NCBI GenBank assembly: GCA_027451905.1
Contig: DAIDHV010000002.1
Location: forward strand, 310,001 to 374,000
DNA length: 64,000 bases
Direction: 5' to 3'
From: Armatimonadota bacterium
Lineage (GTDB): Bacteria; Armatimonadota; Fimbriimonadia; Fimbriimonadales; Fimbriimonadaceae
Made by a program: the position numbers and the translations under genes
Notes under the pieces: model-generated
Told to the model about the DNA's origin: nothing
Database searches by the model: none
The model's input: the letters and a program-made list of their open reading frames with translations, nothing else
Shown here: one piece after another, positions 54,124 through 63,998 of the stretch
Numbering within the stretch: position 1 is the first letter of the stretch
Layout of the letters: the number at the start of each line of letters is the position of its first letter

Positions 54124-54289
54124 TCCTCTTCCTCGGGGCCCTTGTAAAACCTGAACCCTCCCCTCCCTTGAGTTCAGCCTCGTAATTGTGCAAGTTCTCA
54201 TCACTCCTGAAATGGATACGGGGAATTGAACCTTTTCAGAGATGGAATGTACCTTTGGGCAAGGCGGCGGTGTTGCCCGAGGTTTGAAC

Positions 54290-56527
54290 ATGAATTTGGA
54301 TTTTCTCACATTGGGGCATAAGAGATTAGGGGGCCACAAAATGGCAGGTCTCCTTACAGTGACTTTTCTTGTATCGTTAGTTGGAAGCGTGTGGGGGCAA
54401 AGCAAGAATCCTTTGCTCGGCAATCAAGGCATGATTGGCGGAGGTCAGGTTCAAATGTTTGGGCAGCCAATTCACTTGACCTCAACACCGGTATTTTCTA
54501 ACTTTTCAACTCCTGTCGAAACTCAGTCCAGTGCGTTTGTAGCGTTTGGGGGCACCCAGTACAACGTTCAGCCGGGACAGCTTCAAATCAATTTCCCTTC
54601 GGTTGCCAATGGATCAGCCGCGTTGATGGTTTTGAATAATGTCAACAATGTGAGCTTTTCTGGGTACGGCGGAACTGCCCTCACCATGACAAACCCGTCT
54701 TCTTCGGCGGAGTCCATTTCGGTTTGGGTTGTGGATACCAGTAATCAGGCGTGGAGGGCGGATATTGTGTTGCCCGCCAACTCTACTCAAAACTATGCCT
54801 TTTTGAACTCGCCGGCTCCCAGCGGCACTTCGGTAGGCATGCAGGCATTGCCGCCGATCTTTTCGGGATTTGTTAACGTTTTCAGCACTGGCTCGTCAAG
54901 CATCAACTGGTCCCAGATTGCCTCGATCCAGGTGTATTCTATCGGCCCCCAGTCCGCTCAGACGGTTGATATTTCCAACATTTGGCTACTCTCCAATGTC
55001 TCCCTGAGCCAGCTTCTTACCGGGTGTACCGATCGGTGGGGCCAATCGACTTTGAATCCTTGCGAAAATACAATTGCTGCCGATTCGGACCTCGTCAATG
55101 AGAATACAAACGAGCAAAAGACGCTGGCTTCAGGTCCGTTATTGACCAACATTGATGCCTATGGGGGAAGCACATCCCTGCCTGCTCAAACCGCAACCGG
55201 ATCCTGGCAGCTGAGCCAAGTTAACGGGAAATGGTGGTTTGTTGACCCTCTCGGGCACCTGTACTTTATGTCAGGAGTTGACGAGGTTGACCCGTCCAAA
55301 GGAGCTACGATTGTCACCAACCGGAACTACCTGTTTCAGTCTTTGCCAAGTTCTACCGATCCCCTTGCTGTCAACTATGGCACAACCACTGTCAATGGTC
55401 AGCAGTTGCAGACCTATAACATGTACACCCAAAACCTACAGCTAAAATACCAAACCCCGAATTGGCTCCAGCCATGGCTAACCACCACAACCAAGCGGCT
55501 GCAGAATTGGGGCTTCAATAGCTATGGCTCTTACAGCGAATGGTATGAAAACAACACGAATACGCTTCCGTATTTGGCAAGCCTTTCGCTGACCGGCAGC
55601 TACGATACGATTCCAACTGGCAATAACACCAACGCGGCGGTGCTACCTGATCCATGGGATCCTCAATTCAAAAGCGTTTTGCATAGCAATATGAATCTGC
55701 TGATGGAAACCATGAAAACTGACTCAATGCTGGTTGGAATCTACACGGGGATTGAACTTGGCTGGACAGGACTGGGACCAAATCAAAACCTTGGGGTTGC
55801 GTTTGGAGTCATGAATTCCGGTCCTTCGGAGCCAGCCCATATTCAACTTGTCAACATGCTTCAAGCCGAGTACAAGAACATCAGGTATCTCAATTTGTAC
55901 TGGAACACTCACTTCAGTTCGTTTCAATCCGTGAACTTCCCTCTTGGGTACCCAGGATCGGTGACGCCTTGGATGGCGCAAGATCTTGATCAGTTTGAGG
56001 TTCAGTTTGCGGCTCAATTCTTCTCAACCTGCAAGAGCGTTATCAAGACCTACAATCCTAACCTTCTGTACCTTGGCACCGAAATCGGCCACTATTGCCC
56101 AGAGGTGATGCAAGGGGCAGTTGGCAATGTTGACGCCATGTGCGTGAATCGGTATGACGTTTCAATACCAACCGATGTTATCGGTGATGCTCAAACCTAC
56201 AACATTCCAATGTTAATCACCGAGTTTGACTTTAGCTCTACTCAGAGTGGAATGTGGGCGGGACCGATGGTACAAGAACCCGATGAGGCAATCCGAGACC
56301 AGGATGCGGTGAACTACATGAACCAAGCTACCACAAATCCAATGGTGGTGGGTGCCGATTGGTACTTGTACTATGACGATCCACTGACAGGTTCCCTATA
56401 CGGTTATCCTACCGGTGGAAACTTCAATCAAGGGCTGGTTGACCAGACTGATACGCCTTATTGGCCCCTGATTAGTGCCTTCCAGCAGTTCCATTTGACC
56501 ATGTATTCCACAAGATGGAACTCTTAG
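54290..56527 (+). CDS. Secreted GH50-like (beta-agarase/beta-galactosidase-like) glycosidase
   Basis: 745 residues from ATG 54290 (GAGG 7 nt upstream); the frame opens at 54242. Signal peptide with core MAGLLTVTFLVSLVGSVWGQ. An N-terminal beta-sandwich region (about 60-260, Ser/Asn-rich) precedes a barrel with GH50-type blocks: NGKWWFVDPLGHLYFMSGVD, LQNWGFNSYGSYSEWYEN, GIYTGIELGWTG (likely acid/base Glu) and PMLITEFDFSST (likely nucleophile Glu). Actual substrate is uncertain: agarans or other beta-galactans. Monocistronic, with a strong terminator. Confidence 0.78.
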   Translation: MNLDFLTLGHKRLGGHKMAGLLTVTFLVSLVGSVWGQSKNPLLGNQGMIGGGQVQMFGQPIHLTSTPVFSNFSTPVETQSSAFVAFGGTQYNVQPGQLQINFPSVANGSAALMVLNNVNNVSFSGYGGTALTMTNPSSSAESISVWVVDTSNQAWRADIVLPANSTQNYAFLNSPAPSGTSVGMQALPPIFSGFVNVFSTGSSSINWSQIASIQVYSIGPQSAQTVDISNIWLLSNVSLSQLLTGCTDRWGQSTLNPCENTIAADSDLVNENTNEQKTLASGPLLTNIDAYGGSTSLPAQTATGSWQLSQVNGKWWFVDPLGHLYFMSGVDEVDPSKGATIVTNRNYLFQSLPSSTDPLAVNYGTTTVNGQQLQTYNMYTQNLQLKYQTPNWLQPWLTTTTKRLQNWGFNSYGSYSEWYENNTNTLPYLASLSLTGSYDTIPTGNNTNAAVLPDPWDPQFKSVLHSNMNLLMETMKTDSMLVGIYTGIELGWTGLGPNQNLGVAFGVMNSGPSEPAHIQLVNMLQAEYKNIRYLNLYWNTHFSSFQSVNFPLGYPGSVTPWMAQDLDQFEVQFAAQFFSTCKSVIKTYNPNLLYLGTEIGHYCPEVMQGAVGNVDAMCVNRYDVSIPTDVIGDAQTYNIPMLITEFDFSSTQSGMWAGPMVQEPDEAIRDQDAVNYMNQATTNPMVVGADWYLYYDDPLTGSLYGYPTGGNFNQGLVDQTDTPYWPLISAFQQFHLTMYSTRWNS

Positions 56528-56552
56528 GTAGCCCATCCTAACCACCAAAATC

Positions 56553-56588
56553 AAAAGGTGATGACTTCTTTCGAGGTCATCGCCTTTT
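56553..56588 (+). terminator. Bidirectional terminator between the GH50-like gene and the ARC gene
   Basis: 13-bp stem AAAAGGTGATGAC / GTCATCGCCTTTT (one G-U pair) with a 10-nt loop, T run on both strands. It serves two convergent genes. Confidence 0.88.
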
Positions 56589-56605
56589 GGACAATTTAGG
56601 TTGGA

Positions 56606-58288
56606 CTAGATGATGTTCTTACGGGTCAATTGCTCGCCCTTTGTTCTGCCAATCGGTTTCACGGAAATCACATTCTCGGCGGGATGATCAAGGAGCTCCA
56701 GCCAATCTTCGGTGAGGTCCGACTTGGGAAAGATTTCATTTTCTTTGAACTCCTTTCTCATTGCCAAGGAGAGATCTTGCCCGGAAATCCCAGGTTCTTG
56801 GTTAGGGTGCTTGATCGCTCTTTTGATTGCGATGTCTTTTGCCCTATCAATGATGCTCTTGAGGAGGGCACCAGAGACCACATCTTTGGTGTACAGCGTT
56901 TCTGAACTGCCATTTTTTAGATTAACCTTCAGGAACTCGTTTTCTTTTGACTTGGCCCAGAACTCTTCGACTAGATTCTCAATCAGTTCTTTCCTTGCGC
57001 AGTCCAATTCACCTTGATTGCGCTTCAGAACTTCTGGATCCAAAGGAATGCCCTCGTGAAGGTAGATTCCAAGAATTTGAGTTGCTGCCGCTTTGTCGGG
57101 TCTGGAAACCTTGACTTTGCGGTCAATCCTTTCGGGGCGCAATACGGCGGGATCAATGTAATCTGGTCGGTTGGAAGTCAGGATGAGGACCACGTTATCC
57201 AGCGACTGCAATCCATCGAGTTCCGCGCAGAATTGAGGAACAACCGTATTGGAGATGTTGAGCCACCGTCCAGATGATCTTGTTCGCAGAACGGATTCCG
57301 CTTCATCCATGAAGATAAAAACAAGAAAGCCTTCTTTGGCTTTTTCCCTTGCGGTCCGAAAGACTTCTCTGACAATTCGCTCGGTTTCTCCAAGCCACAT
57401 GTTGAGAATTTTAGGGCCGGAAATGGCCATGAAGTACTCTTGCACAGGCTTTCCAAGCCGGGCCGAATACTCCTTGGCAAGGTTGAAGGCGGTTGCCTTT
57501 CCGATCAAGGTTTTGCCGCAACCAGGAGGACCGTAAAGCAAAACCCCTTTGATCGGCTTTTTGTCGAACTTTTTAAACAACTCTGGGTGCAACAGAGGCT
57601 GCTCAATTGTCTCTCGGATGAGTTGAATGGCTTCTGATTGCCCACCCACCTTCTCCCAAGGAAGGTCTGGGACAGCTTCTAAAAAGTAGTCTCGAACCTC
57701 GTCGGATTGGTAAATTTCAACTGCCATGCGGCCAGAAGGATCGAGCCTGACTTCGTCACCGGTCTTGATGATGGATTCTTTGAGGGAATCGGCTCGGTCA
57801 ATGATCCGTTTTCCGGCACCGCTTGGGCCAGATCCAAGCCTGAGCCTTCCGTCTTCTAGCGAATCCTTGACCTTTTCGATGCGGCCGGTTCTAGGAGACG
57901 GCAAAACGTTGACAATGGCATAAGCTTCATTGAGGCAAACACAGGCGCCTGGCGTCAATCGGCTCTGATCCAATTTCGAATCCACTTCGGAAACATAATC
58001 GGAGTCCCCAAGGACAACAAGGGCTAGGTTTCGGTTGGGTTGGCCCGCTTCTTCTTCGGTGAGCCATCTCAAAAACACTCCGATCCGGTTGGCGGGTGCG
58101 GTTAGCTTGGCATAGGCTTGCTCATATTCGGCAAGCAGCTTGTGGACTTCTTCTTGGCGGAGTTCATCCTTTTTGACGCTTTCGCGCAAGGCAGATAGGT
58201 AACTTTTTAGCCGTGGCTGATCACCGCTTGTTTGCTCCTCAATCTTATCGATGAGCCGTAAAATTTCGCTACCGCTTTCTTCCTGCAT
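56606..58288 (-). CDS. ARC/Mpa-type AAA+ ATPase (proteasome-associated family)
   Basis: 560 residues. N-terminal coiled coil (about 5-65), two OB-like domains (about 68-205), one AAA+ module: Walker A LLYGPPGCGKTLIGKA (253-260), pore loop KILNMWLGETER, Walker B FIFMDEAESV (324-331), and Arg-finger region LRPERIDRKVKVSRP. This order is that of ARC/Mpa, the hexameric unfoldase that feeds the bacterial 20S proteasome. It ends in KNII, not in the QYL-like tail that docks Mpa to the proteasome. No prcAB, pup/UBact, dop or pafA gene is nearby. Probably in one transcript with the two upstream genes. Confidence 0.85.
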   Translation of the reverse strand: MQEESGSEILRLIDKIEEQTSGDQPRLKSYLSALRESVKKDELRQEEVHKLLAEYEQAYAKLTAPANRIGVFLRWLTEEEAGQPNRNLALVVLGDSDYVSEVDSKLDQSRLTPGACVCLNEAYAIVNVLPSPRTGRIEKVKDSLEDGRLRLGSGPSGAGKRIIDRADSLKESIIKTGDEVRLDPSGRMAVEIYQSDEVRDYFLEAVPDLPWEKVGGQSEAIQLIRETIEQPLLHPELFKKFDKKPIKGVLLYGPPGCGKTLIGKATAFNLAKEYSARLGKPVQEYFMAISGPKILNMWLGETERIVREVFRTAREKAKEGFLVFIFMDEAESVLRTRSSGRWLNISNTVVPQFCAELDGLQSLDNVVLILTSNRPDYIDPAVLRPERIDRKVKVSRPDKAAATQILGIYLHEGIPLDPEVLKRNQGELDCARKELIENLVEEFWAKSKENEFLKVNLKNGSSETLYTKDVVSGALLKSIIDRAKDIAIKRAIKHPNQEPGISGQDLSLAMRKEFKENEIFPKSDLTEDWLELLDHPAENVISVKPIGRTKGEQLTRKNII

Positions 58289-58404
58289 CTTATGAATATC
58301 TACGCAATGACGGTTCGAATCAGATCAAAAGGGGAGCCAACAAAGTGAAAAACGGGCAACTTTCTTGCCGATCTCAATCTGAAGAACTCGGAACTTGGCT
58401 GCCT

Positions 58405-59679
58405 TTAGGTTGAAGAGACCTGCAAGCCCAAAGCCGTATTGACAGCCTGAAGAAGAGCTTTTGCGGTGGCAAGAGCCTGAGTCTCCGCCTGATAAGATCC
58501 AGAAAACCTGGTTTTTATTTGCTGCTCCTCTAGGGTTCCTTCCACCGAACCCACGAAGGTGTGGTTAGGATCTTGGAACGCATAAGCAGCGTCTAGCTGG
58601 ATGAGTGTCTCTGGCATCGCCTTGGTGAGGGCAGAGAGCACGGCTTCGGCAGCGGCAGAACCAACTGACTTTTGACCAGGCTGAGATTCGCCTTCAAATC
58701 GATCATGGTTCCAGCTCACAATGAGTTGAATCACGGGGCTTTCACTATCCGATTGGTGAATTTCGGCCAGCTCCAAAGGACCGTTTTCGGCTGATTTGGT
58801 ACCCAAAGTCGTGGACACAACCGCCTTAGGCTGGATTTTTTTCTTGCGAGCATCGGCGAGGGCTAGGTTGATGAGGTCTTCAATGTTGGATTCAGGATGA
58901 ACCGCGCTGCGCTCGTGGGTGCGGCGGCCACCAGCTATACCGACGGTGACCCCGATCTGAATGGCAAGCCCTTCACTGAGTCGGCTAGGCACAATTGCCA
59001 AGATTTCCTCCCCCAACTGCTGGAGTTGGGCCCTTGGCCGAGTGGTTCCAATTAAGAATTTGTCTCCTCCTGCCCGGACTAAGATATCGGATTGGGGGCT
59101 GATTTTGGAGGCAAGTTCTCCTGCTAATTTCTGAAGGAGGACGTCGGCCCGTCGGTGGCCAATGGCAGAGTTGACCTTTCCAAATTTATCGACATCAACC
59201 GCCAAGACGCACACTTCAACCCCATTGCCAAGCTGAGCCGCGCCCCATTCCCTCAAGAGATCCACCCAACTGAGTCCGGTTAAAGGATCCGAGGAGCGGA
59301 ACAGCTCCTTTAGCATCATGTTGGAGGTCAAGATGCCCAAAAAAAGGTCTCCACTTTGCACGGGTGCTGACGAAATGTCTTCTCTTACAAACTGAGCCGC
59401 GGCTTGGCGCAAAGTCATTTTGGCATCCATGACGGTGGAAAACGGTTTCAGAATATCGGCTAAATGAGCCTGGGGGTTAGCTTTTTGCACCTGGTCAAGT
59501 TCAACAAACCCAAGAATGGCCCCGTTTTTGACGACCGCAAGCTGCTGAATCTTGTGCCCTTTCATGACAAACTCTGCCGTCTGAGCCAAATGCTCAGGGG
59601 CAAGCCAGATGGGCTGATATTCAATCGAATCTAAAGTTTGCATTGGCAGCAGGCGCAAAAGCCCTCTTTCATTAAGCAC
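58405..59679 (-). CDS. CBS-pair protein with degenerate GGDEF domain and unknown C-terminal domain
   Basis: 424 residues (GTG 59679; ATG 59643 possible, removing 12 residues). CBS pair about 15-125 (FVMKGHKIQQLAVVKNGAIL, ISSAPVQSGDLFLGILTSNM), GGDEF-type domain about 130-300 opening with DPLTGL and VDVDKFGKVNSAIGHRRADV. The signature reads RAGGDKF (204-208), Glu to Lys, and no RxxD I-site is seen, so cyclase activity is unlikely. The last ~110 residues (VIQLIVSWNHDRFEGES then AAAEAVLSALT) are a domain I cannot name. It may bind adenine/guanine nucleotides. Between DnaA-like and ARC genes, same strand. Confidence 0.8.
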   Translation of the reverse strand: MLNERGLLRLLPMQTLDSIEYQPIWLAPEHLAQTAEFVMKGHKIQQLAVVKNGAILGFVELDQVQKANPQAHLADILKPFSTVMDAKMTLRQAAAQFVREDISSAPVQSGDLFLGILTSNMMLKELFRSSDPLTGLSWVDLLREWGAAQLGNGVEVCVLAVDVDKFGKVNSAIGHRRADVLLQKLAGELASKISPQSDILVRAGGDKFLIGTTRPRAQLQQLGEEILAIVPSRLSEGLAIQIGVTVGIAGGRRTHERSAVHPESNIEDLINLALADARKKKIQPKAVVSTTLGTKSAENGPLELAEIHQSDSESPVIQLIVSWNHDRFEGESQPGQKSVGSAAAEAVLSALTKAMPETLIQLDAAYAFQDPNHTFVGSVEGTLEEQQIKTRFSGSYQAETQALATAKALLQAVNTALGLQVSST

Positions 59680-59752
59680 TTAAAGACGGGTTAAACGTGT
59701 AAAAACAAGCCGGTCAAATTACCTGATTTTACGGAATTGACCCAAAAACCTG

Positions 59753-60808
59753 TTATTCTTGCAGAAGAAATTCCACAACTTCAACCGCAATCCGGGAAGC
59801 GGCTTCTCTTTCAAAGGGGGTGTCGGGAAGCGTCTTCGCAAAGGAATTGGCCCTTAAAAAGGCTTCCGAAGCGGTCATATTGTAAAAAACTGACACTGAA
59901 GATTCACTGAGCTGGGCTACCTTGAGCATCAGGTAAAGGGCCAAATCCTTTGCCCGATTTCTGGGCAGCATTCCTCGATTCTCAAAGGAGACACGGGCAA
60001 TGGCTTCTCGAAGGTCCCAACCGCTGTCGTCAGACAGGAAAGGGTTGATAATCCCACAGGCAAAGAGGGTTTGGGCGGGGTCTGACCAATCTCGAGTTGT
60101 CAGTTTGAGCCGTTTTACAATGCCAACGTAGGACCTTCCGCTGCACTTGACCCGTGATGCCAAGAGCCTCACAAGCAATGGCGATACCAACAGGTGCTCC
60201 GTTTGGCAAATTTGGGAAATGATCAACGTTCGGTCTTCAAGACTCGGAGTTTGAATTTGGGCTACTACCCAATCTTTCGAGGCAGGCAAGAGGGACCGTG
60301 CGAATTTAGCCGGCATCTGCGACGTCATGCTGACAAGGGTGCGGCGCCCAGATTTAACCCTCCGATCAAGCCCAAGTCTGAGGTTTTGCCGTAATTTGGA
60401 TTGGCAGGCAGCGTCTTGAATATTGTCGAGGATTAAAGGCTCGGAACCCTCTGACTTTTGGTTCTTTAAACTCCAATCAGCGGCTTCTCTCACCGTTGTC
60501 TTTGCTTCGTGGGGCAAAAGTTGGGCAACTGCTTCAAGCAGATGAGATTTTCCGTATCCGCTGGGACCCACAATTGCAGTGAATTTTCCGTGACCAAGAA
60601 CAAAGAGCCGACAGGCCCTCACCGCTTGAATATTGCTTTCCACCACCGCGATGTTTCCAAATTGTTTGGGTTCTCGCTCAAAAAGGACGTCGGACAGCCT
60701 TTCTTGGCTTTTCTCAGTCGTCTCGATTTGATTTGATGTGAAGCGATCTTGCTCGGAACGAGCAAAATGGCCAAGGGCACCGTCAAGGAGCGCGCGAGGA
60801 GAGGTCAC
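59753..60808 (-). CDS. DnaA-like AAA+ ATPase with degenerate DNA-binding domain
   Basis: 351 residues, GTG start at 60808. Walker A AIVGPSGYGKSHLLEAVAQL (81-88) and Walker B PLILDNIQDAA (125-132) match the DnaA pattern (GxxGxGKTHLLHA, IDDIQ). Residues about 185-235 follow DnaA domain III sensor-2/lid order (SLEDRTLIISQIC, YVGIVKRLKL), and 285-351 resembles domain IV (RAKDLALYLMLKVAQLSESS), but the DNA-contact signature GGRDHTTV is replaced by YNMTASEAF. N-terminal DnaA domains I-II are absent. Likely a DnaA/Hda-type regulator rather than the initiator. Has its own promoter and upstream DnaA boxes. Confidence 0.7.
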   Translation of the reverse strand: MTSPRALLDGALGHFARSEQDRFTSNQIETTEKSQERLSDVLFEREPKQFGNIAVVESNIQAVRACRLFVLGHGKFTAIVGPSGYGKSHLLEAVAQLLPHEAKTTVREAADWSLKNQKSEGSEPLILDNIQDAACQSKLRQNLRLGLDRRVKSGRRTLVSMTSQMPAKFARSLLPASKDWVVAQIQTPSLEDRTLIISQICQTEHLLVSPLLVRLLASRVKCSGRSYVGIVKRLKLTTRDWSDPAQTLFACGIINPFLSDDSGWDLREAIARVSFENRGMLPRNRAKDLALYLMLKVAQLSESSVSVFYNMTASEAFLRANSFAKTLPDTPFEREAASRIAVEVVEFLLQE

Positions 60809-60823
60809 GGTTCTTCCCTTACA

Positions 60824-60852
60824 ATAGTAATGGAATCTTGTCCATACGTCAA
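60824..60852 (-). promoter_or_regulatory. Sigma70-type promoter of the DnaA-like gene
   Basis: Minus strand TTGACG (-35, 60847-60852), 17-bp spacer, TACTAT (-10, 60824-60829). The start point would be about 60817, only some 9 nt before the GTG, so the message would be almost leaderless. Confidence 0.65.
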
Positions 60853-61074: not shown

Positions 61075-62364
61075 TCAATGATGTTTGATCTTAAGCCAGT
61101 AGGTGGCAAAATTGAAATTGGGGCTGTTTTCCTGGGTATGGCAGGTGACGCAAACCTTAGTTCCCAGGTTCATTTTTGCCCACTTGGGATTGAGAATATG
61201 GGCACCGCCTGGACCGTGGCAGCTTTCGCAAGTGACGTTGGCCAATTGTGGAGTTTTAGATTGGGATAGAAACCCGCATGTGCTGCTTAACCCCGTGACA
61301 TGGCATTTGACGCAGTCTGGGTCAAGCCCATGACCTTGTTTGAGCAGGTCCAGATAGGCATGAGAATGGGCGCTGGAGTGCCACCGATTAAAGTCAGCCC
61401 GATGGCAGGAAAGGCATGCCTTTGAACCCACGTAATGAATCGTCTTGGAACGAGGCCAAAGTTTTAAGAGTTGAGCCTGATCCACTTGGTGAAGGTAATC
61501 ATCCATGACTTCAGTGCCCTTTTTAGCATTGGCAAAATCGGGGCCCAGGGGAACAGGCTTGAGTAGCACAGGCCCATTGTTGGAATAGGTAACCACTAGG
61601 GCTTCGCGACCAAGATCCCCGGGACTCACGAGCCACGTCTTTCCGACCACTTCCGGGGATTGAGTTGCAGTACCAAGGCTTTGGTAAATGATGAGGCTAA
61701 GGCTTGGATGCAGTTGAGCTAGCCTTTCGGCTGATGTCTTGCTGGCGGTTGTTATCAAAATTGCAGCCTCCCCATTTTCTTTAGCCTTAGCAGCGAAAGC
61801 GGTGATGGCAGGGTCATCACCAGAAGATGCCACCTGCGAATTGCTTTGCATTTGTGGTGGAGGGCTACAGCATCCAATGAGAAAATGAGATGCAGCGGAG
61901 GTTGAAATTACTTGAGAAGGCGAAGCCTGGACTCCGTTTAACGCCTTGTTGCCCGATAGCTGAGAAATCTCCGAGACAAGTCCTTGACCGTAAGAGGCCT
62001 CATCCGGCCCGACTCCAAGGACATCGCATCGAAGTTCCTGAGCAAATTCAGCGACGGCTTCTGCTTTCATGACGTTTTGCTGCAGCCCAATTGATGAAGC
62101 GTTGCTTGCGCTTGGCACCGAGCCGGGGGTCAGTAAAACCAAGGTTGACCCCTGCTCTCGCTCTTGGTCAATTAGGGTCGCAAGTCGCCTTATCCCTCCT
62201 ATCATTGGGCTTGTGCATCCACAAGGCTCAAGGGAACCGTTGAAGTGACCGCTAATGACGATCCTGGTGAGGGAAGAATGGAGCGATTGGGATGGTTGGG
62301 GCTTCCAGTGAAGCCCACCGCTTACAATTCCTAGTGTTGCCGCTGCCCAGCACCAAAATCTCAT
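61075..62364 (-). CDS. Exported tetraheme cytochrome c with N-terminal phosphoesterase-like domain
   Basis: 429 residues. Short N-terminal hydrophobic stretch (MRFWCWAAATLGIVSGG). Residues about 30-270 resemble the UshA/5'-nucleotidase-type domain often joined to cytochromes (GSLEPCGCTSPMIGGIRRLA), but the metal-binding Asp/His motifs are not recognisable (VLLTPGSVPSA in place of an L-x-D-x-GD), so it looks inactive. The C-terminus is a cytochrome c-554-like domain with four CxxCH sites: CLSCH, CVKCH, CESCH, CVTCH. A role in periplasmic or surface electron transfer is likely. 14 bases after the DUF1573 gene. Confidence 0.85.
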   Translation of the reverse strand: MRFWCWAAATLGIVSGGLHWKPQPSQSLHSSLTRIVISGHFNGSLEPCGCTSPMIGGIRRLATLIDQEREQGSTLVLLTPGSVPSASNASSIGLQQNVMKAEAVAEFAQELRCDVLGVGPDEASYGQGLVSEISQLSGNKALNGVQASPSQVISTSAASHFLIGCCSPPPQMQSNSQVASSGDDPAITAFAAKAKENGEAAILITTASKTSAERLAQLHPSLSLIIYQSLGTATQSPEVVGKTWLVSPGDLGREALVVTYSNNGPVLLKPVPLGPDFANAKKGTEVMDDYLHQVDQAQLLKLWPRSKTIHYVGSKACLSCHRADFNRWHSSAHSHAYLDLLKQGHGLDPDCVKCHVTGLSSTCGFLSQSKTPQLANVTCESCHGPGGAHILNPKWAKMNLGTKVCVTCHTQENSPNFNFATYWLKIKHH

Positions 62365-62378
62365 CTCGGGTGCATTAC

Positions 62379-63998
62379 CTACTCCGCAAACCGGCCCGAA
62401 ACGGGAACTTTGATAATGGGCTGGGATGGTGAGTTGGTTCTCAACGTGAGAGTTGCCTGAATTGGGCCAAATCCTGGCTTGCGGAGGTACCGGATCGTGA
62501 TCGTGTGAGAACTCCCCCGCCCATTTCCAGAAGTCCTCACCGAAAACTGGGGAAGGTTGAGGGATGCGCTGAGGATTCTAAACTGGCGGCCTGGCCAAGA
62601 AACTTGAACTGAAAAAGGCCGAAAGCTTTGCCCGACTGGTCCAAGAAAGACTGGCGATGGATCGCAGACAATGCCATTTTGCAAGTAGATTGTGTTATTG
62701 ATGGCACCAAAAACGGAATCATTTGTGCTGAGGTTCAAGGTCACGGGCACTCTTTGATTCTTGAAGTCCTTGGGGATCGTAATAAGGAAGCGGTACCCAT
62801 CAATCGTCTGCTCCCCATCACCAACTTTGACTTTGCCATGGAAAGGAGATTCGGAGACATGAAATCCAGCCGGCTGCACCGTCCAACCCAGGGGTTTGAC
62901 GCTTGGTCCATAAAACTCTAGATATTCCACAATATGCCGCTCGCCATGATGAATGGTCAAATTGGTAATGCTGGCGTCTAGACTTCCAGTCGATTGATGA
63001 ACACTAGACTGGGTAATGAATCGAAAGCGGCGCTTGATATTGACATCCACGGGGATGGTGATTTCGGAAGCACCTGGGTCGTTGGTAAATAAGTAAAGTT
63101 CTTTGTGGACCTCGGATCCATAGGCAGTAGTATCCATGCCCATTTTATAAAATCCAGTTTGACCGGCGGAGAGATCTAAAGGTGGTTCTTGAGTAAAGCA
63201 AGAGCAGTCTGGATGAAGTACCGTTTTCAGGGTTCCTTTTCCATAGTTTGTGACCTGAAGAGTTATTGAGAGCTGATCCCCTTGGACAACGCCTTTCGTC
63301 ACAACAACATTTTGCGGATCAAGAGAGATCTTAGGACTATTGACGGCAACCGCTTGGCGATCCCTGGTTGCCTTCAACAAGTCATCGACAAGGGTTAGGT
63401 TCTTATCAACAATGACTTGGTCAGAAGGCAGGCCAACATGGGTCCCCGTGTCGGGTCCGTTAACCAAGTGGGCAAAGCTGCTTGGGTTGGGGCTTTCATG
63501 CAGCCCAAAGTATTGGCTTAGGCCATATTTAATCGAGTTGTCAACTTCTAGGGCACTTGATCTTTGAAGCGGATCTCCTCTTTTGAGCCCGACTATAATC
63601 TCGTAAGGAGCTGAGCCTCCATGATTAAATACGGCGACGGAAGCAGGGATTTGAGAGTCATTGACTTTGGCAAGATGATCGGCGTACTCGATGCTGAGGT
63701 TTGGCTTCAGGGTTCCTTGGCTGTACAGGGGATCGGTTGTTGAAAAGAACGTTAGTCGGATGGGAAGACCATTTTGCCAAGCGGACAATGCGTCTTGTAG
63801 GGCACTAAAGTAGTCTGACCTCAATTGCTTTGGGACCGCCGAATCATCGTACCGAATCGTAATCACCCTCTTGGGAAGATATTGGGCTAAGGCAGCTGCT
63901 TTTTCGAACTGGCCCAGACTGAGTTGGTTTTCTACTCCCTCAACCAATTGCAAGAACTCCCTGCTGTCACCTGGTTCAACTGGAGGAATATCGGCCGT
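62379..63998 (-). CDS. DUF1573 protein with metzincin-like N-terminal part (partial at right edge)
   Basis: The frame is open to the window edge, so the 5' end is missing. Residues about 15-210 of the visible part recall matrixin-type proteases (PIRLTFFSTTDPLYSQG, SIKYGLSQYFGLHESPN), but the zinc motif HExxHxxGxxH is not kept (NSIKYGLSQYFGLH). About 215-310 is a DUF1573 domain (VTNYGKGTLKTVLHPDCSCF, then SAGQTGFYKMGMDT), and two further beta-sandwich (HYDIN/ASH-like) domains follow to the C-terminus. Precedes the tetraheme cytochrome by 14 bases; probably same operon and same compartment. Confidence 0.75.
   Translation of the reverse strand, partial: TADIPPVEPGDSREFLQLVEGVENQLSLGQFEKAAALAQYLPKRVITIRYDDSAVPKQLRSDYFSALQDALSAWQNGLPIRLTFFSTTDPLYSQGTLKPNLSIEYADHLAKVNDSQIPASVAVFNHGGSAPYEIIVGLKRGDPLQRSSALEVDNSIKYGLSQYFGLHESPNPSSFAHLVNGPDTGTHVGLPSDQVIVDKNLTLVDDLLKATRDRQAVAVNSPKISLDPQNVVVTKGVVQGDQLSITLQVTNYGKGTLKTVLHPDCSCFTQEPPLDLSAGQTGFYKMGMDTTAYGSEVHKELYLFTNDPGASEITIPVDVNIKRRFRFITQSSVHQSTGSLDASITNLTIHHGERHIVEYLEFYGPSVKPLGWTVQPAGFHVSESPFHGKVKVGDGEQTIDGYRFLITIPKDFKNQRVPVTLNLSTNDSVFGAINNTIYLQNGIVCDPSPVFLGPVGQSFRPFSVQVSWPGRQFRILSASLNLPQFSVRTSGNGRGSSHTITIRYLRKPGFGPIQATLTLRTNSPSQPIIKVPVSGRFAE

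Follow-up and report, generated by a model that had tools for sequence, protein, structure and literature searches.

The Fimbriimonadales are little-studied soil and water bacteria of the phylum Armatimonadota. In one member of the family Fimbriimonadaceae, a stretch of 64,000 nucleotides of contig DAIDHV010000002.1 (hereafter the window) carries three adjacent genes, encoding a DnaA-derived AAA+ ATPase (c3), a protein with a pair of CBS domains followed by a GGDEF domain (c0) and an ARC-type proteasomal unfoldase (ARC). Do these genes belong together and, if so, what would a relative of the replication initiator do in front of a proteasome motor? An earlier note on this DNA had suggested that nucleotide or energy state could be linked through them to replication or protein turnover. 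Comparison with relatives indicates that in the order Fimbriimonadales c3-c0-ARC is genuinely transcribed as a unit. Our preferred reading, to which we assign a probability of about one half, is that c3 and c0 form a regulatory pair, consisting of an Hda-like DnaA paralogue and a nucleotide-gated enzyme of cyclic di-GMP (c-di-GMP) synthesis, whose operon also supplies the proteasome unfoldase.

Results

Conservation and transcription of the c3-c0-ARC unit

The three open reading frames occupy positions 56,606 to 60,808 of the minus strand, in the order c3, c0, ARC, and are separated by gaps of 73 and 116 bp; both this layout and the make-up of the gene set agree with the earlier note, which had also made its proposal depend on the neighbourhood being kept in relatives. 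It is kept: ARC lies at most 2.6 kb downstream of c3 and on the same strand in 48 of the 77 window-family genomes having both genes, and in 4 of 7 in the sister family f38, counts in which some of the unlinked cases are merely split by contig ends and many of those on different contigs are unresolvable. Of 20 sampled window-family genomes, 12 have the three genes side by side. As controls, the best neighbours of PafA, PrcA and DnaA were found in 4/16, 5/16 and 12/15 genomes, respectively, and the conservation across genomes together with these controls leads us to reject a one-genome accident. Among 39 named loci, 16 have c3-c0-ARC, six have c3-ARC without c0 and ten have c3-c0 without an adjacent ARC; in one more ARC stands upstream in the same block, four have c3 alone and two are not judgeable. 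Wherever c0 adjoins c3 it follows it directly (28/28 named loci), and c3-c0 is the tightest pair of the unit.

The genes c5-c4-c2, which lie upstream in the window family, were not found beside the f38 unit, and c2 was not detected next to c3 in f38 or in family f40; the f38 arrangement thus indicates that c3-c0-ARC is a unit of its own. Furthermore, the contiguous state occurs on several sides of the deepest splits of the ARC tree, whose deep branches are weakly supported, so that the unit is apparently ancestral and ARC left it several times later on.

A single promoter stands at the front of the unit, before c3, as the earlier note had read it. Taken alone the window promoter is not significant (2 found versus 3.0 expected in shuffles). 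In the comparison, a matching motif TTGAC[G/C]-N17/18-NA[C/G]AAT precedes c3 in 16 of 27 related loci, against a mean of 0.055 in shuffles, and is present in 0 of 22 and 0 of 14 internal gaps, never before c0 or ARC, with a pattern that was sharpened after the sequences had been inspected; in loci fetched later it was found in 3/7 of the same family and 0/7 of others. The gaps are usually 11-104 bp between c3 and c0 and 2-116 bp between c0 and ARC, and mostly 138-268 bp between c2 and c3. Co-transcription of the three genes is therefore well supported by comparison.

c3 was found in nearly all members of the window family, the exceptions being five genomes of which two measure 1.5 Mb, and in f38 and f40. 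The two small genomes (G220 and G221, reported 97% complete) gave no match to either c3 or ARC; they may have undergone genome reduction and lost the proteasome. When 84,980 species genomes were scanned with one strict peptide pattern, which could miss distant relatives, c3 was placed only in Fimbriimonadaceae and related Armatimonadota records, with few exceptions: one archaeal-labelled metagenome-assembled genome, one or two such genomes named only 'bacterium', and one marginal match in Planctomycetota. The archaeal record (L131, JADZEW010000035.1, labelled Methanoregulaceae archaeon) is likely a mislabelled or contaminated assembly. The earlier note knew of no described system of this composition; we found no description in the literature either, within open-licence papers, and the conserved set is apparently undescribed.

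Several observations, besides the unlinked cases mentioned above, weigh against our preferred reading. ARC has departed from the unit in G026, G099, G105, G143 and G051/G128, and one genus includes genomes without c0, in which c3 stands directly before ARC. In family f39 c3 is absent and ARC exists without it; the matches of 470-500 residues in that family are DnaA itself, judged by their length. Outside the order c0 is wider in the phylum and occurs without ARC or c3, its co-occurrence with ARC there is not significant (18/56 versus 16/75 genomes, Fisher p 0.23), and its recurrent neighbours are FtsY and RidA. A phylum-wide fixed link between c0 and ARC is rejected on this test.

A different neighbour is seen in G105 (C13:294081-298531, L062): PafA follows c3 in the same orientation at a distance of 2.1 kb. 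The two are separated by a gene for a secreted, probably pectate-lyase-like product, with a gap of 581 bp, and as this arrangement is confined to G105 we consider a link between c3 and PafA probably due to chance.

c3, a DnaA paralogue

A search with the single c3 sequence gave weak matches to Hda (34.8 bits) and DnaA (33 bits), the former far below the NCBIfam cut-off for Hda (TIGR03420, 194.8 bits). The family profile, in turn, aligns over its full length with domains III and IV of Thermotoga maritima DnaA (2z4r, E 1.1e-14), and the AlphaFold model, with a mean predicted local distance difference test score (pLDDT) of 87.5, finds DnaA (8btg) as its best Foldseek match. The ATP-binding module appears intact, residues G81, P82, G84, G86 and K87 of Walker A and D128 of Walker B being invariant in 33/33 relatives. 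DnaA domain I is missing from c3. Also absent are the initiator-specific insert between Walker A and B, replaced by a gap of 13-14 residues relative to DnaA in the profile alignments, and the GGRDHTT-type DnaA-box signature; the C-terminal part alone showed no significant similarity to DnaA domain IV in a comparison whose template alignment had very few sequences. Each genome encodes one ordinary DnaA elsewhere, with a GGRDHTT-type signature, which rules out c3 as the sole DnaA. The lack of the insert and of the signature, together with the normal DnaA in the same genome, make c3 an unlikely initiator or binder of origin DNA. c3 is thus a DnaA paralogue, most likely one without binding to origin DNA, and of the 'replication-initiator-like ATPase' of the earlier note the DnaA-derived AAA+ origin stands while the initiator role is improbable.

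The disordered N-terminus of c3 carries a short motif, with the family form [RK]LSxVLF, that HMMER aligns to QLSLPV of the Hda structure 3bos. Its positions are conserved in the relatives to different degrees (L38 27/33, S39 29/33, V41 22/33, L42 22/33, F43 20/33). In Hda the sequence QLSLPL is required for binding to the sliding clamp (PMC3836487). Against such a function in c3 stand three observations: the exact form QLSLPI occurs in one lineage only, the motif is missing in families f38 and f40 and in some members of the window family, and DnaE of the order Fimbriimonadales uses Q[DE]SLF (10/10). Given the sister families without the motif and the different sequence of DnaE, clamp binding by c3 is only partly supported, and we treat it as a lead and not as a result.

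c0, a CBS-GGDEF protein

The GGDEF domain of c0 is recognised by Pfam with an E value of 1.3e-14, and its model superposes on PleD with a VIA Z score of 19.4 and a root-mean-square deviation of 1.9 over 150 residues (pLDDT of the whole model, 89.2). From the single sequence the CBS match is weak, just below the Pfam cut-off; the family profile, compared with CBS proteins of the PDB, reveals a clear CBS pair (E 2e-26), and Foldseek matches this pair to complexes of AcuB with nucleotides. No Pfam family matched the C-terminal domain, and a regulatory domain of 2-isopropylmalate synthase, considered for its beta3-alpha-beta3-alpha likeness, is unsupported by Pfam.

The earlier note had described c0 as a sensor with a dead GGDEF site. 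This is correct for the window copy, which has the CBS pair and in which GGDKF is genuinely encoded (gga gga gac aaa ttc), and it does not extend to the family: the glutamate is present in 46/46 other aligned relatives and is lost in the window genome only, the window genus having no second genome for comparison. The residues for metal and guanine binding (D162, N170, D179 and K281) are invariant in the family, and all catalytic residues checked are kept. The loss being private to the window genome, a dead site is not in the nature of the c0 family, and we reject the view of these proteins as dead-GGDEF sensors. The arginine of the inhibitory site is absent from most members (R in 2/24 and 1/24).

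ARC and a dispersed Pup-proteasome

ARC carries the tandem OB domains (PF17758 and PF16450) and an AAA domain (PF00004), all above cut-off. Its best model is the proteasome ATPase TIGR03689 with 445.8 bits, below the curated cut-off of 504.75, and we therefore call it ARC-type by architecture and context without filing it under this equivalog. Sequence identity between it and the ARCs of the phylum's other families amounts to 50-58%, and in the ARC tree those sequences make up a single clade next to it. The proteasomal-type unfoldase of the earlier note is confirmed by both the domains and this grouping.

The genome has the rest of the Pup-proteasome elsewhere: Dop, a Pup-like open reading frame and PrcB on contig C5, PafA on C3 and PrcA on C1, so that the genes are scattered over four places. 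Other families of Armatimonadota keep ARC-dop-prcB-prcA-pafA together, a contrast indicating that the proteasome locus was dispersed in the window family and that ARC found a new home. By these assignments ARC belongs to a complete, if scattered, Pup/UBact-proteasome system.

On C5 the three genes form a tight cluster (L079:8660-11138, genome G000), in which the Pup-like frame of 65 residues, assigned by its position and its RSGQ end, presumably resembles UBact, the Pup analogue of Gram-negative bacteria, in that end. At its own C-terminus the window ARC reads KNII, without GQYL, and two ARCs in canonical clusters of the phylum end in RRNII or HNII. More generally, Armatimonadota ARCs mostly end in a short hydrophobic stretch (KNII, RRNII) and are devoid of the proteasome-docking GQYL. 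The GQYL motif is a feature of actinobacterial Mpa (PMC8223512). With the NII-type ends, docking to the 20S core may differ in Armatimonadota.

Other features of the window

The coordinates of the features are collected in Table 1. A separate pair of genes, c4 and c2, precedes c3 with a gap of 266 bp, and in relatives c4 overlaps or nearly overlaps c2. This adjacent, family-conserved pair (61,075-63,953) consists of OS_HP2-like and UshA-like proteins, whose NCBIfam families include selenoproteins. The convergent plus-strand gene beyond ARC (54,242-56,527) matches agarase CBM-like and GH42-like domains. Just outside the window, prfB for release factor 2 (L071:15199-16420, minus strand) is interrupted at a CTTTGA site, apparently the common case of programmed +1 frameshifting.

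Table 1. Features of the c3-c0-ARC locus and its surroundings (window positions).
Feature	Coordinates	Strand	Basis
c3, DnaA-derived AAA+ ATPase, 351 residues, GTG start	59753..60808	-	open reading frame; profile, AlphaFold, Foldseek
c3 motif RLSDVLF (residues 37-43; disordered N-terminus), corresponding in position to clamp-binding QLSLPL of Hda	60680..60700	-	HMMER alignment, conservation
c3 AAA+ (domain III) part, residues 46-240; Walker A GPSGYGKS, Walker B LILDN	60089..60673	-	invariant residues
c3 C-terminal helical part, residues 244-350, at the position of DnaA domain IV, without GGRDHTT-type signature	59759..60079	-	full-length alignment
c0, CBS pair + GGDEF + C-terminal domain, 424 residues, GTG start	58405..59679	-	open reading frame; Pfam, NCBIfam, PDB profiles; AlphaFold
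c0 CBS pair, about residues 15-128	59296..59637	-	family profile, Foldseek
c0 GGDEF domain, residues 129-285	58825..59295	-	Pfam; structure comparison
c0 degenerate active-site motif GGDKF (E207K)	59056..59070	-	sequence
c0 C-terminal domain, residues 300-418, predicted beta3-alpha-beta3-alpha	58426..58782	-	AlphaFold secondary structure
ARC-type proteasomal ATPase (unfoldase), 560 residues	56606..58288	-	OB_N, OB_C and AAA domains; TIGR03689; groups with ARCs of the phylum
Promoter before c3, TTGACG-N17-TACTAT	60824..60852	-	sequence; matching motif in relatives
Hairpin between convergent genes, likely terminator of the unit	56552..56589	.	fold -20.8 kcal/mol, z -3.69
c2, UshA-like/cytochrome c protein, last gene of upstream neighbouring unit	61075..62364	-	
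c4, DUF1573 / OS_HP2-like protein	62379..63953	-	

Discussion

In the reading that we prefer, c3, which kept its ATP-binding AAA+ module and lost the DNA-binding parts of DnaA, could act as a putative Hda-type regulator through protein-protein contacts, docking on DnaA or on the replisome and not on DNA. The CBS pair of c0 would read adenine nucleotides and its answer would be c-di-GMP in most species; where the catalytic site has been lost, as in the window genome, c0 may serve as a binding-only scaffold. ARC would be expressed with both from one promoter, so that the supply of the proteasome motor would follow the same growth or nucleotide signal, which may in turn matter for proteolysis. 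The three products might also be physical partners and affect replication or proteolysis, and nucleotide or energy state could then be linked to either process, as the earlier note had supposed.

The main rival is co-expression without partnership. According to this explanation the ancestral Pup-proteasome cluster broke up and ARC landed behind the promoter of c3-c0, a pair unrelated to the proteasome. The dispersal of the proteasome genes over four places here, against the intact cluster of other families, is what such a break-up would leave, c0 stayed with c3 in breakaways where ARC had left (G026, G099, G143), and outside the order c0 shows no tendency to occur together with ARC. However, the linkage of c3 and ARC persists across two families whose ARCs are 54-70% identical and clearly exceeds that of the neighbours of PafA and PrcA, and ARC remains nearby in several breakaways (G190/L160, G169 and G228); we hold this explanation to be possible, with the odds clearly against it. 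A further proposal, which we consider unlikely, is that c3 and the CBS-gated c0 act jointly on the Pup/UBact-proteasome, nucleotide status setting both the activity of DnaA and the proteasomal degradation of replication proteins.

A more specific arrangement, and in our opinion an improbable one, would make c3-c0 a proteasome adaptor module that delivers substrates such as DnaA to ARC upon a nucleotide signal. The operon structure and the gene order fit, the window c0 has lost its catalytic motif and kept its fold, in accordance with a binding-only role, and there is a precedent in Caulobacter, where RcdA and the c-di-GMP-bound GGDEF protein PopA prime ClpXP for CtrA (PMC8865702). The inhibitory-site arginine, the usual route of c-di-GMP binding, is nevertheless missing in most c0 proteins, the catalytic site is intact in most relatives, and c0 has been lost in genomes that keep c3-ARC. 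Equally doubtful is a c3 that works as a DNA-binding transcription factor or secondary initiator and whose C-terminal helical domain would recognise a sequence different from the DnaA box: this domain is predicted with high confidence at the place of DnaA domain IV, but the residues and signature of domain IV are unconserved even among c3 proteins, and the C-terminal part compared by itself bears no significant similarity to that domain. We thus retain the regulatory pair c3-c0, with ARC supplied from the same operon, as the best explanation.

Most work on Pup-proteasome genes concerns a single actinobacterial locus, and the different, conserved home of ARC beside two regulators points to where its control may be sought outside Actinobacteria. 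In a phylum other than Proteobacteria, a DnaA-derived protein without the DNA-binding parts that almost all members of one family encode would constitute an independent Hda-like case. The unit as a whole hints at a possible connection of growth signals with replication control and protein turnover; a joint circuit of c3, c0 and the proteasome, if true, would be the first direct link of replication control, c-di-GMP and the bacterial proteasome.

Comparison with known systems

In Proteobacteria DnaA is known to be regulated by a paralogue of the Hda type: Hda/HdaA carries out its regulatory inactivation, stimulating ATP hydrolysis by DnaA together with the clamp. Like c3, Hda is a DnaA-derived AAA+ protein that works beside a full DnaA, and its QLSLPL stands where many c3 proteins carry their short N-terminal motif. 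In contrast, c3 carries a further helical domain at its C-terminus, its motif is in most species devoid of the glutamine, and it belongs to a different phylum and scores far under the Hda cut-off. With DnaA, its closest solved structures, c3 shares the AAA+ module and the order of domains III and IV, and differs in having no domain I, no initiator-specific insert and no DnaA-box signature, with a normal DnaA elsewhere in the genome. c0 resembles CBS-GGDEF diguanylate cyclases and AcuB-like CBS regulators in its CBS pair followed by a GGDEF domain, whose catalytic residues are all kept in the family, and departs from them in its beta3-alpha-beta3-alpha C-terminal domain, in the GGDKF of the window copy and in mostly having no inhibitory-site arginine. 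The known Pup-proteasome (ARC/Mpa, Pup or UBact, Dop, PafA, PrcA and PrcB) agrees with the system described here in the tandem-OB and AAA architecture of ARC and in the presence of all partner genes in the genome, whereas here the genes are scattered, ARC lies in a predicted operon with c3 and c0, and its end is NII and not GQYL. Known ARC/Mpa proteins bind Pup through an N-terminal coiled coil. Finally, the PopA-RcdA-ClpXP pathway of Caulobacter also ties a GGDEF protein to an AAA+ unfoldase and to cell-cycle control; this is a likeness of working only, as the partners are not homologous and the protease is a different one.

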